Source of the DNA: Methylococcaceae bacterium
GTDB lineage: Bacteria; Pseudomonadota; Gammaproteobacteria; Methylococcales; Methylomonadaceae
DNA: 34,871 bases
Direction of reading: 5' to 3'
NCBI GenBank assembly: GCA_021736705.1
Contig: JAIPFI010000010.1
Location: forward strand, 1-34,871
Below are positions 23,874 to 34,871 of this stretch, piece after piece. How positions within the stretch are numbered: the first letter of the stretch is position 1; every line of letters begins with the position of its first letter. Below the pieces are notes generated by a model. The model ran no database searches. It worked only from the letters and a program-made list of their open reading frames with translations, and was not told the origin of the DNA. Position numbers and translations under genes: made by a program.

Positions 23874-23938
23874 CACAAAAAAATTAGTTGTCGAAGTTAT
23901 TTTGTGCTGACTACGCATTTAAAGCGGGACAAATCACT

Positions 23939-23974
23939 GGAGTGAAATAGCAATAGCTAAAGCTATTGCACTCC
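23939..23974 (-). repeat. Solo copy of the RAYT-associated REP
   Basis: On the minus strand it reads GGAGT, arm GCAATA, core GCTTTAGC, arm TATTGC (23974 down to 23950), identical over 25 bases to the plus-strand REP of the array at 34356. It then continues TATTT and closes with CACTCC, so a longer outer stem GGAGTG/CACTCC also forms. It lies about 10 kb from the RAYT gene. Confidence 0.8.
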
Positions 23975-23996
23975 TGACTTCTGTTTTCAAAATTTC

Positions 23997-24059
23997 TGTC
24001 CCACCTTAAGTTGGTAGCTGCCACGTGCTACAAATTTGGCTATGAACTTAAGGCGGACA
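23997..24059. repeat. Nested inverted repeat with TTAA-GGGACA ends
   Basis: Arms TGTCCCACCTTAAGTT (23997-24012) and AACTTAAGGCGGACA (24045-24059) pair with a one-base gap. Inside is a smaller hairpin, GTAGC at 24014-24018 with GCTAC at 24027-24031. Related half-sites lie outside it at 23916-23931 and 24149-24165. Confidence 0.6.
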
Positions 24060-24069
24060 TTATATATTG

Positions 24070-24137
24070 GTAGGGCGCGGCTTCAGCCCGCCAATGCCCA
24101 TCATCTATTCTAAAGGCGGGCTGAAGCCACGCCCTAC
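24070..24137. repeat. GTAG-type REP palindrome
   Basis: The left arm begins GTAGGGCGCGGCTTCAGCCC; the right arm read on the minus strand begins GTAGGGCGTGGCTTCAGCCC, one mismatch over 24 bases. The loop is about 20 bases. Nearly the same as the copy at 8575-8641. Confidence 0.85.
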
Positions 24138-24216
24138 GGTTTTCAATATGTCCCGTGTTAAAATGATAGCTACAAATTTTAATCAGTTTCGCTTTAGACA
24201 GTAAGCCAAAGTTCCA

Positions 24217-32286: not shown

Positions 32287-32954
32287 TGCTTCTCCGCTAC
32301 TTTTCGTAGCGCAGCCGAGTTTAATAAGGTCACAGCCCCCCGATTTAAACTAACCCAACCATACACTTCAAAACGCTTTAAATGTCTGGAAATAACTTCA
32401 CGAGCTGAGCCTAATTTTGTGGCCAGCTCTTGATGCGTTAAAGTAAGTACATCATTACCATCTGCTAATAATGCTCGACTTAAACGTGCGTCAATCGCGC
32501 TAAAAGTCACGTCTTCCAAAAGCCCAATCACATCCGATAAGCGTGCTGAAAACTTTTTAAACACAAATGCACGAAAAAAAGCCGATTGCTCAATACAACG
32601 GTAAAAAGCAGGGGCAGAAACAGCAAATGCCAACACTTTACTCTCAGCAATGCCTTCGGCCGGATAATGATCACCACTTAATAAACAAGAAGTCGTCAAT
32701 ACACAAGAATCGCCCGAACAAACACGATACAACATCATTTCCCGTCCACTTTCGGAAATAATTTGTGCTTTCACACTACCTTGCAAAACCAATAAATATT
32801 GATCACAAACATCACCGGCATAAAAAACTTGTTGCCCAGCAAGCAACTCCACTAATTTTGCCGAAAGCATCAGACTTTTCATACTTGCCTCACCCGAGGC
32901 AGCAAATTCAGGAAAATAGGTATTCCATAAGTTCTGCAAACCTATTGCATCCAT
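32283..32954 (-). CDS. Crp/Fnr family transcriptional regulator
   Basis: Cyclic-nucleotide-binding-fold sensor (residues 15-125, with LAGQQVFYAGDVCDQYLLVLQG near 40 and GDSCVLTTSCLLSGDHYPAEG near 80) joined to a winged HTH (about 150-215) whose recognition region is TLTHQELATKLGSAREVISR. The N-terminal Cys cluster of oxygen-sensing Fnr is missing, so a 4Fe-4S sensor is unlikely; the effector is unknown. The frame opens with TTG at 32960, but the ATG at 32954 with GGGG seven bases upstream is preferred (223 aa). It overlaps the dnaQ end by 13 bases, so both are probably co-transcribed, and it converges with the small gene at 32098. Confidence 0.88.
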   Translation of the reverse strand: MDAIGLQNLWNTYFPEFAASGEASMKSLMLSAKLVELLAGQQVFYAGDVCDQYLLVLQGSVKAQIISESGREMMLYRVCSGDSCVLTTSCLLSGDHYPAEGIAESKVLAFAVSAPAFYRCIEQSAFFRAFVFKKFSARLSDVIGLLEDVTFSAIDARLSRALLADGNDVLTLTHQELATKLGSAREVISRHLKRFEVYGWVSLNRGAVTLLNSAALRKVAEKH

Positions 32955-33652
32955 AAACAAGCCCCACTTGATTTTTCCAGCATATCTAAGTTTTTTTGAT
33001 GCTCCAGCAATTCCTCAGCCGTACATTCAATAATTCTCAACGCTGGCCGATCACTGCTAATACGCTGAATCACCTGCTCTTTACCGCCCTCACTCAAATC
33101 ATCATCATCCAGCATCGACAATTGCCCGCCAGTCATTAACAAATAAACGTCCGACAAAATCTCCGCATCAAGCAAAGCGCCATGCAAATCACGATGACTA
33201 TTATCAATGCCATAACGCTTACATAAAGCATCTAAACTATTGCGCTGTCCGGGATGCTTTTTACGTGCATAGACCAAGCTATCAAAGACCGTGCAAAACT
33301 CCTCGGTTTTACCTATACCCTGCTTTAATAACGCAAACTCATGATCCATAAAGCCAATATCGAACGGCGCATTATGAATAATCAGCTCCGCGCCACGGAT
33401 AAAATCTAAAAAATCATCCGCGACGTCTTTAAATAAAGGCTTATCCTGCAAGGATTCATTAGTAATCCCATGCACCTCAATCGCGCCTTGATCTATCTTG
33501 CGCTCAGGATTGATATACATATGGAATTTCCGATCAGTTAAACGCCGATTAACCAATTCCACACAACCAATCTCAATAATCCGATGCCCTTCTTTAGGAT
33601 TTAAACCCGTAGTTTCCGTATCTAAAACAACCTGCCGACCTTTTTTTCTCAT
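32942..33652 (-). CDS. dnaQ: DNA polymerase III epsilon subunit (DnaQ, 3'-5' proofreading exonuclease)
   Basis: Proofreading exonuclease of the replicative polymerase. The DEDDh site is complete: Asp/Glu in VLDTETTGL (residues 9-17), Asp in HNAPFDIGFMDHEF (near 98), and His and Asp in HRDLHGALLDAEILSDVYL (near 153-171). The C-terminal part beyond about 185, the segment that binds the polymerase alpha subunit in E. coli, is present, so this is full-length DnaQ (236 aa) rather than a short exonuclease. AGGA six bases before the ATG marks the start. rnhA, a common divergent neighbour of dnaQ, is not here; a REP module and the RAYT gene lie upstream instead. Confidence 0.93.
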   Translation of the reverse strand: MRKKGRQVVLDTETTGLNPKEGHRIIEIGCVELVNRRLTDRKFHMYINPERKIDQGAIEVHGITNESLQDKPLFKDVADDFLDFIRGAELIIHNAPFDIGFMDHEFALLKQGIGKTEEFCTVFDSLVYARKKHPGQRNSLDALCKRYGIDNSHRDLHGALLDAEILSDVYLLMTGGQLSMLDDDDLSEGGKEQVIQRISSDRPALRIIECTAEELLEHQKNLDMLEKSSGACLWMQ

Positions 33653-33685
33653 AATTATTCCTGTTTTTTTACACTAATCACCACA

Positions 33686-33747
33686 AAAAAAGCTAAAGCT
33701 TTTTTACTCCAAAAAACAAAATGGAGTGCAATAGCTTTAGCTATTGC
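33686..33747. repeat. Paired REP module (BIME) downstream of the RAYT gene
   Basis: Two REPs in opposite orientation joined by a 12-base linker. The minus-strand REP (33710 down to 33686) reads GGAGT, arm AAAAAA, core GCTTTAGC, arm TTTTTT. The plus-strand REP (33723-33747) reads GGAGT, arm GCAATA, core GCTTTAGC, arm TATTGC. It is the same module as in the array at 34356 onwards, differing only in the linker. It lies 39 bases beyond the RAYT stop and 34 bases upstream of dnaQ. Confidence 0.88.
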
Positions 33748-33786
33748 AGATGCAAACTAACGAGCATTTGAATTAAACATAATTTT

Positions 33787-34326
33787 TTAAAAATCATCTT
33801 CACCATGATACAAATCTTTATACCCAGAATATTCTTTAAATTGTTTAACCACTGTTTCACGCCCCTGAGACTCTACATACGAATGAAAACTTGAAAAGGA
33901 ATAATCATTCAAATTATCAACATAACGATGCTTAATAGGATTATTAAATAAATAATTTAGGTGCATCAAATAATCTTCCTCATTGCGGGGACAATAATCC
34001 CAGTAATTCCACCAAACCAATTGTTGTACTTGTGTCGTTTTTTTAATATGAAAACCACTAACACTGTGAACTTCTCGAATAATTTTTGTAAGATCTTGCC
34101 CGTTTCTACTTTTCCCTAATAAATGATAATGATTATCTAAAATCACCCAGTGATGCAACTCCCATTCATAGCGCTCAAAAGCAGACCTAATACAAGTAAG
34201 CAGTAGCGTCTTTAGCTGTGAATCTTTCAGTAAAGGGAGCTTGTTATAGATTGCCGCTGTAATAAAGTACGGAGTGTCATCCATAAAAATATGTGTTGGG
34301 TTATGCAAATAATCTTTTCTTTCCAT
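33787..34326 (-). CDS. REP-associated tyrosine transposase (RAYT, Y1/HUH family)
   Basis: Single-copy-type transposase related to IS200/IS605 TnpA that processes single-stranded REP palindromes. The 179-aa product has the HUH metal site His66-Tyr67-His68 in HWVILDNHYHLLGK, the family N terminus (HNPTHIFMDDTPYFITAAIY), and the helix DYLMHLNYLFNNPIKHRYV (118-136) with Tyr119 and Tyr125, one of which should be the nucleophile (the family block is YIHxNPVKH). WWNYWDYCPRNEEDYL near 105-120 is also typical. It is complete, without frameshift, and is flanked on both sides by matching REPs, forming a REPtron. The ATG follows a weak leader with no strong Shine-Dalgarno. The adjoining tandem array lies in its promoter region. 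Confidence 0.92.
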   Translation of the reverse strand: MERKDYLHNPTHIFMDDTPYFITAAIYNKLPLLKDSQLKTLLLTCIRSAFERYEWELHHWVILDNHYHLLGKSRNGQDLTKIIREVHSVSGFHIKKTTQVQQLVWWNYWDYCPRNEEDYLMHLNYLFNNPIKHRYVDNLNDYSFSSFHSYVESQGRETVVKQFKEYSGYKDLYHGEDDF

Positions 34327-34355
34327 TTGCTTAATAAGGGATTAAGTTCCACACA

Positions 34356-34871
34356 GGAGTGCAATAGCTTTAGCTATTGCTTTTTTTAATCTTCTAAATA
34401 TCATCGCGGATACTCTTTGCTTTTCATTCGTTTATCAAAAAAAGCTAAAGCTTTTTTACTCCAAAAAACTAACTGGAGTGCAATAGCTTTAGCTATTGCT
34501 TTTATTAATCTTCTAAATATCATCGCGGATACTTTTTGCTTTTCATTCGTTTATCAAAAAAGCTAAAGCTTTTTTACTCCAAAAGACTAACTGGAGTGCA
34601 ATAGCTTTAGCTATTGCTTTTATTGATCTTCTAAATATCATCGCGGATACTTTTTGCTTTTCATTCGTTTATCAAAAAAAGCTAAAGCTTTTTTACTCCA
34701 AAAAACTAACTGGAGTGCAATAGCTTTAGCTATTGCTTTTATTAATCTTCTGAATATCATCGCGGATACTTTTTGCTTTTCATTCGTTTATCAAAAAAAG
34801 CTAAAGCTTTTTTACTCCAAAAAACTAACTGGAGTGCAATAGCTTTAGCTATTGCTTTTATTAATCTTCTG
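34356..34871. repeat. Tandem array of RAYT-associated paired REP modules (119-bp period)
   Basis: Units start at 34356, 34475, 34593, 34712 and 34831 (periods 119, 118, 119, 119), and the last is cut by the window end. Each unit is: plus-strand REP (25 bases), AT-rich spacer (about 56 bases, with ATCATCGCGGATAC in every complete copy), minus-strand REP (25 bases, ending ACTCC) and a 12-base linker. Units differ by only a few single bases and one A-run length, so amplification looks recent. The first unit begins 29 bases upstream of the RAYT start. An apparent 62-codon frame through units 3-5 is not a gene. Confidence 0.93.

Follow-up and report, generated by a model that had tools for sequence, protein, structure and literature searches.

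In Escherichia coli, the gene for the REP-associated tyrosine transposase (RAYT; REP, repetitive extragenic palindrome) lies between bacterial interspersed mosaic elements (BIMEs) of type BIME-2, and the same survey described a direct association with a BIME for one third of its RAYTs (Nunvar 2010, PMC2817692). Tandem clusters of near-identical REP doublets forming hairpins (REPINs), repeated together with their flanks, and REPIN clusters near RAYTs have been described by Bertels and Rainey (2011, PMC3116915). According to the subclass descriptions of PMC6006769, the REP head is GT[AG]G in subclasses 2.2, 2.4, 2.5, 2.7 and 2.8, and subclass 2.6 and class 3 are without it, so that this head is not universal in the superfamily. 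Here we describe a RAYT gene and a tandem REP array at one end of a 34,871-nucleotide stretch of DNA from a Methylococcaceae bacterium (assembly GCA_021736705.1, contig JAIPFI010000010.1), hereafter the window, which spans contig C32 from end to end; the genome (G000) has 196 contigs and is 86% complete. We suggest, with a probability of roughly 0.75, that this locus is a REPtron whose RAYT is surrounded by its own REPs in a BIME-2-like array and belongs to a branch with GGAG-headed REPs, and that the array is a by-product of cutting and rejoining by the RAYT together with slippage and not a regulatory device. The arrangement of a REPtron with a BIME-2-like array is already known, and it is the RAYT branch with a GGAG guide that is apparently undescribed. 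Intact catalytic residues, cognate flanking hairpins, dispersed REPs and local homogenisation of the array can be read from the sequence itself.

Structure of the RAYT gene and its REP array

The RAYT gene (33787..34326, reverse strand) is an intact open reading frame (ORF) that runs from an ATG at 34326 to 33787 and encodes 179 amino acids. Its product matches NF047646 (REP_Tyr_transpos) at 101.9 bits with a cut-off of 80, Pfam Y1_Tnp at 31.7 bits, and the sequence of PDB 4er8 with an E value of 1.4e-12. The structural model has a predicted local distance difference test score (pLDDT) of 91, and its best PDB match is again 4er8 (VIA Z 17.7, root mean square deviation 2.6 Å over 160 residues). 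The histidine-hydrophobic-histidine (HUH) motif H66-Y67-H68 (34123..34131, reverse strand) is invariant in an alignment of 27 sequences (A2) and, with the nearly invariant N65, takes the form NHYH. The catalytic tyrosine Y125 (33952..33954, reverse strand) is aligned with Y115 of the E. coli protein (4er8) and opens the class 2 signature Y---NP, here Y125-LFN-NP130, in which Y125, N129 and P130 are invariant in the same alignment; among the relatives introduced below, 67 of the 68 clade rows have Y in this column and one has a gap, and all 25 outgroup rows have Y. The guide-reading loop WWNYWDYCPR (residues 105-114; 33985..34014, reverse strand) was located by alignment to E. coli residues 94-104. 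The gene does not qualify as an IS200/IS605 insertion sequence (NF033573, 20 bits with a cut-off of 55), nor is it a near-identical multicopy element, the protein having one match in its own genome at E ≤ 1e-10.

Upstream of the gene, Tandem Repeats Finder (TRF) gave a single array (34356-34870, period 119, 4.3 copies, 97% match), which ends at the contig end (34356..34871). Its units of 118-119 bp start at 34356, 34475, 34593, 34712 and 34831, with lengths of 119, 118, 119 and 119 bp and a final stub; since the contig stops inside the array, this copy number is a minimum. REP1, a GGAGT head with the hairpin GCAATAGC/TTTA/GCTATTGC, occupies 34356..34380 on the forward strand and recurs in the units at 34475, 34593, 34712 and 34831, and REP2, a GGAGT head with the hairpin AAAAAAGC/TTTA/GCTTTTTT, occupies 34438..34462 on the reverse strand in unit 1 and recurs in units 2-4. 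The long spacer between them has 57 bases in unit 1 (34381..34437) and 56-57 in the others. This is a BIME-2-like arrangement, with the tandem alternation of two oppositely oriented REP types with short and long linkers (12 and 56-57 bp) over 4.3 units. With the heads taken as facing outward (REP1 > 56-57 bp < REP2), each unit amounts to a REPIN with a long loop, to which a 12-bp linker is added. On the other side of the gene, beginning 39 bases beyond its stop codon, REP2 (33686-33710, reverse strand) and REP1 (33723-33747, forward strand) stand head to head across a 12-bp linker (33686..33747), a junction that is kept in a sister species. Both hairpin sets, as DNA, fold better than shuffled sequences (z -4.15 to -4.50; 0/200 shuffles folding as well).

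ORF calling, TRF and folding thus confirmed the preliminary description of a complete RAYT gene with a paired REP 39 bases past its stop and an array 29 bases before its ATG (gap 34327-34355). It had also called the downstream pair the same module as the array unit, which is correct for the two shared REPs and incorrect for the remainder, the 56-57-bp spacer being absent and the 12-bp linker being a different one. Since the REPs alone are shared, this pair looks like an array junction and not a whole unit. The proposed link between the RAYT and cognate REPs was borne out by the hairpins on both sides and by REPs dispersed in the genome: REP1 (≤2 mismatches) has 63 sites, six of them at the RAYT locus, with 0 for a reversed-pattern control, and 15 sites in the genome of the sister species (G013). 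The RAYT is therefore flanked by inverted REPs that are also present elsewhere in the genome, as is characteristic of RAYTs. The spacer is confined to the array, as a 25-base core (≤3 mismatches) had four matches in the genome, all in the window array (reversed-pattern control 0), and another genome search, in which 40 of 96 candidate places were scored, agreed.

GGAG head of the REPs

Both REPs of the window are headed GGAG and not GT[AG]G, a non-canonical head on which the preliminary description had not remarked. As relatives we used 79 loci fetched with six peptide patterns, WWNYWDYC among them, and the REP head was not used. In a looser scan, 74 of the 79 loci had GGAG-headed hairpins no more than 400 bp from the RAYT, 58 of them on both sides, compared with 8/79 at 1.2-1.6 kb and a mean of 2.95/79 in base-shuffled flanks. 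The five loci missed by the looser scan were L068, L109, L118, L122 and L127; by eye, L068 has a GGAGT-headed sequence, and L122, the most distant relative (38%), seems to have a different head. The clade tables are based on loci with at least 45% identity over at least 100 or at least 150 aligned residues, which gives 71 of the 79 either way. When no head was preset, the commonest 4-mer at hairpin feet was GGAG (53/71 loci near the gene, 4/71 far from it) and the most enriched 5-mer was GGAGT (67/70 near, 16/54 far). For more distant RAYTs, used as an outgroup, it was CGTAG (19/22 near, 4/21 far), followed by GTAGG (21/22 near, 8/21 far). A strict scan with set heads over the 71 loci found GGAG in 62 near the gene and 6 far from it, and by eye most of its nine misses have GGAGT beside a hairpin. 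Hairpin scans in the GTAG outgroups yielded GT[AG]G in 8/25 and GGAG in 3/25, and another scan found no shared head in 23; they perform badly probably because GTAG-type stems are bulged, and the 5-mer count was used instead.

Among the papers listed by our literature searches we found no GGAG-headed REP for RAYTs, and an earlier description is possible; a 2017 work by Bertels, Gallie and Rainey deals with RAYT groups. In the main texts of PMC2817692, PMC3733652, PMC6006769 and PMC8266576, GGAG occurs 0 times at the start of a word, a count that does not cover GGAG inside longer strings of letters.

Guide loop and extent of the branch

In PMC6006769, E. coli residues in the range 94-104 are given as guide-contacting, and W94, Q95, E100, H101 and R104 of TnpA_REP are discussed for guide recognition, the role of W94 being unclear and E100 being D in subclasses 2.5 and 2.7. 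Residues of the clade were counted in 68 of the 71 loci, L063, L095 and L114 being left out because they have fewer than 100 residues before the first stop. The clade loop has W95 in 66/68, D100 in 67/68, Y101 in 68/68 and a one-residue deletion at 96 in 68/68, whereas outgroup RAYTs have Q95 and H101 in 25/25, so that a motif W-x-N-Y-W-D-Y stands against the W-Q...E/D-H guide loop of GTAG-type RAYTs. A plain protein search, free of the fetch patterns, returned WWNYWDY in L132 and L133, and its matches have, by eye, GGAG beside hairpins in their flanks. In a tree calculated without the loop columns by a quick method with no bootstrap (98 rows with 120-260 residues before the first stop, 72 of NYW[DG]Y and 26 of WQ...H type), the two types fell on the two sides of one branch with a Shimodaira-Hasegawa-like approximate likelihood ratio (SH-aLRT) support of 99. 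The branch is also discrete in identity: searches of 61 relatives with an E limit of 1e-10 and of 369 class genomes with a limit of 1e-16, two partly overlapping sets, gave matches over at least 100 query residues that were either 44-100% or at most 34% identical, the exceptions to this gap being two short fragments with 47% (55 residues) and 41% (64 residues). Sequence records place the branch in methanotrophs, Thiotrichales, Desulfobacterota, Chloroflexi and others.

Based on these observations, we regard it as an evenly balanced proposition that a wide, discrete branch changed its guide code, with GGAG for GT[AG]G and with the deletion and the change of Q95/H101 to x95/Y101 in the reading loop. 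In the cross-pairing model of PMC8266576, A3G4 selects CT and T2G4 selects CA; GGAG keeps A3G4 and loses T2, so that the model predicts cleavage at CT without CA for the window RAYT, and the branch would then represent a natural specificity switch. For the E. coli enzyme, a role of GTAG in site selection lacked experimental support according to the same paper.

Several observations weigh against so simple a picture. Position 95 is not always W, with one Y and one S among the 68 rows, and the fetch pattern WWNYWDYC makes the near-uniformity of the loop partly a matter of selection, which inflates the residue counts. The plain protein search also returned WWNYWGY in L051/L131 and, at position 95, R in L208, C in L211 and Y in the fragment L141, all three with NYWDY. 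The tree is a quick one, and the program warned of L122, whose long branch joins at the outgroup, so that its place is unsure. Finally, the strict scan raised other heads near the gene as well (GAAG 22 vs 3, GT[AG]G 17 vs 2 and GCAG 12 vs 3, near vs far), which comes about because hairpins themselves concentrate there.

Turnover of the array

A dnaQ-like exonuclease gene (32942..33652, reverse strand; RNase_T, E 3.7e-44), which we read as dnaQ, lies downstream of the RAYT gene in the same direction. In the sister species (locus L050 in G013), the RAYT has 92% amino acid identity and the same dnaQ adjoins it; identical nucleotides number 497/540 in the RAYT gene, 626/711 in dnaQ and 119/133 in the gap between them, the neighbouring genes thus being 88-92% alike. 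Between the sister's two complete array units and the three of the window, however, only 85-90 of 117-119 aligned bases agree, with another 17-22 gap columns (72-76%), yet the three window units differ from each other by 1-3 bases and at most one gap; this comparison omitted the window unit that runs into the RAYT leader. The sister's own two units are less alike (119/134, 6 gap columns), so that its array is less uniform. Since the units have diverged between the species and are near-identical within the window, the two arrays have a common ancestry but were homogenised or re-expanded separately, which agrees with the earlier proposal of recent or continuing amplification. In other relatives, L058 and L059 have arrays of 10.5 and 8.5 units with RAYT genes identical at 513/540 positions, and the place of the 6.6 units in L057 is taken by one REP in L055 (RAYT 493/540 identical). 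These comparisons support a recent or continuing turnover of the array.

In L050, GGAGT-REP2 and REP1-ACTCC flank the RAYT and face outward, with the array continuing upstream, while the window has no REP2 nearest the gene, a 29-base leader lacking REP2 joining REP1 to the ATG. With this layout, the downstream pair of the window looks like the next array junction. On the far side of the array in G013, contig C185 carries a tag gene followed by a REP pair, next a Type ISP restriction-modification gene with an open reading frame 1071 codons long (PF18135, E 6.6e-90), and finally array units of the same kind. The end of C185 and the start of C178 (L050) are the same 20 bases, which lie inside the repeat and fit adjacency without proving it. 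In the genome of the window, the tag contig C109 has the same Type ISP gene (87% identical), reaching the contig end. The REP pair between tag and the Type ISP gene is of GGAG type in G013 (L205, on C185) and of GTAG type in G000 (L204, on C109), and by eye an apparent remnant of the Type ISP gene adjoins a GTAG-type RAYT in G001 (L168). The gene rnhA was rejected as the far neighbour of the array, since it lies near the beginning of a different contig and forms no boundary of the array.

Arrays beside other RAYTs and origin of the array

We counted as an array any tandem repeat with a period of 40-300, a score of at least 100, at least 1.9 copies and a unit containing GGAG or CTCC. Such a REP-bearing array lies no more than 500 bp from the RAYT in 20 of the 79 relatives. 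At that distance, upstream flanks carried one in 8/71 and downstream flanks in 11/77, with no clear bias between them, and the control stretches at 1.5-2.5 kb in 2/58 and 1/70, respectively. The preliminary description had considered a near-clonal array beside a RAYT to be unusual, a view that is contradicted by these relatives and by the E. coli RAYT with its flanking BIME-2 (PMC2817692). The complete chromosome of Desulfonema magnum holds three RAYTs of the GGAG branch (L075, L091 and L068) and long REP arrays, one of these RAYTs having 12.6 units of 42 bp upstream and 4.8 downstream. A methanotroph symbiont of Bathymodiolus brooksi (L206, G015:C148) has two GGAG-branch RAYT copies, each flanked by REP pairs; one has two stops, and an Eco57I/TaqI-like restriction-modification frame of 936 codons precedes the intact one. 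A plasmid search (E limit 1e-8) and a scan of viral contigs found no relatives.

Judging from the enzymes of E. coli and Marinomonas (PMC8266576), we propose that the RAYT would bind single-stranded GGAG-headed hairpins through its remodelled guide loop and would cleave beside the hairpin through Y125, with the guide selecting the dinucleotide that is cut, before rejoining the strands. If neighbouring REPs are cut and joined again many times, and if replication also slips at the hairpins, the array may expand, contract and homogenise, in which case the array would be a by-product of RAYT activity without being a regulatory device. What tells against this account is that slippage by itself could make the array and that RAYT action on the REPs is deduced from sequence. 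Moreover, REP1 persists in two congeners where no GGAG-branch RAYT was found, G011 (22 sites) and G007 (11), and in the genome of the window 44 of the 57 dispersed REP1 sites overlap matches to a 131-132-bp element with terminal inverted repeats, so that REP number is not evidence of RAYT activity. We rate the chance that slippage in replication or unequal recombination at the hairpins alone makes the array grow and shrink, with the RAYT uninvolved and its neighbourhood merely keeping REPs, at slightly short of even. The head-to-tail units with a unique spacer, the scattered single-base variants and one 1-base deletion are slippage-like, but REP-bearing arrays are denser beside RAYTs of the branch (19/148 flanks) than 1.5-2.5 kb away (3/128; Fisher p 0.0013). 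REPs themselves are densest beside RAYTs, and this density therefore does not separate slippage from RAYT action.

It has also been suggested that the array is a regulatory device whose copy number sets RAYT expression, which we find improbable. The array does fill the upstream region of the gene, and each unit has a terminator-like hairpin antisense to it. However, consensus matching over 33600-34871 found no promoter-like site in the array, the sole one (33969-33940) lying inside the RAYT gene with 5.2 expected by chance in the region, and of the terminator-like hairpins (6 against 0.9 expected) the 5 within the array stand antisense to the RAYT, so that feedback through array length is left without support. 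A single REP at the corresponding place in the related L055 and the occurrence of arrays upstream or downstream with no clear bias likewise disagree with such a function. That the array is an assembly artefact, an outcome allowed for in the preliminary description, is very improbable, although it sits at a contig end: its units carry different single-base variants, the separate assembly of the sister species has a homologous array across C185 and C178, and long arrays lie inside the complete D. magnum chromosome (L075 and L091).

Passenger elements and history of the dnaQ locus

At 23909-24171 of the window and on contigs C159, C158, C129 and others we observed two small elements with inverted repeats, about 131-135 bp long and with ends similar to GGCTAnnnnnTTAAnnCGGGACA; both carry a REP pair, which is of GGAG type in one element and of GTAG type in the other. 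Their ends have 137 sites in the genome at ≤1 mismatch (control 0), the GGAG-type element has at least 23 near-full copies at 95-100% among the matches listed, and 8-bp target duplications were present in 6 of the 14 copies looked at. A likely full-length parent is C33:28723-30426, which holds a 482-amino-acid DUF6399 protein. The GGAG REPs in the genome of the window have thus spread largely as passengers of another transposon.

Among 17 dnaQ loci in the genus (L160-L176, window included), a GGAG-type RAYT lies upstream in 2 and a GTAG-type RAYT (27% identical), intact or broken, in 4 (G009, G007, G001 and G016). The tag and dnaQ genes adjoin without a RAYT in G011, G005, G010 and G014; of the remaining loci, that of G006 is interrupted by the end of its contig, and a different upstream sequence is present in 6. 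The spot upstream of dnaQ has therefore held two kinds of RAYT.

Significance and comparison with known systems

Two RAYT types with different loops and heads in one genus, in different species and even beside the same neighbour (upstream of dnaQ), form a natural pair of guide readers, and swapping the loop or a head base between them would be a direct test of how the guide tetranucleotide is read and the cleavage site chosen. Orthologous arrays homogenised in each species offer a setting in which REP amplification driven by the RAYT can be separated from that driven by slippage.

With respect to described subclasses, the motifs in Table 1 of PMC6006769 include no subclass that combines NHYH with WW or WD and with YLxNNP, both tryptophan pairs being considered because it is unstated there which tryptophan is the W-motif. 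The nearest is TnpA_Y1 subclass 2.8, which shares the NHYH form of the HUH motif and the class 2 Y---NP, but its description gives the motifs W[YH] and YIHYNP, GT[AG]G REPs and an N-terminus rich in proline, and in the sample of that paper it occurred in Cyanobacteria only. The window RAYT has WW (94-95) or WD (99-100), YLFNNP, an N-terminus that is not proline-rich (MERKDYLHNPTHIF) and GGAG, and is set apart from 2.8 by description only; since the related fragment L141 has WY, kinship with 2.8 is possible.

The E. coli REPtron tnpA_REP (yafM/rayT; PMC2817692, PMC6006769) resembles the window in its Y1 HUH gene between alternating inverted REPs of two types, in adjoining tandem BIMEs, in REPs dispersed through the genome and in the same fold (4er8). 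They differ in the head (GGAG in the window, GTAG in E. coli) and the loop (WWNYWDYCPR against WQPRFWEHAIR), and the window has perfect, bulge-free 8-bp stems and a unique 56-57-bp spacer. Pseudomonas fluorescens SBW25 has REPIN clusters near RAYT genes as well, but of another REP class and with clusters spread through the genome (PMC3116915). In the Marinomonas REPtrons Ma and Mb, REPs are concentrated at tnpA_REP, which was read there as recent local multiplication; their heads are GTAG, unlike those of the window (PMC8266576).
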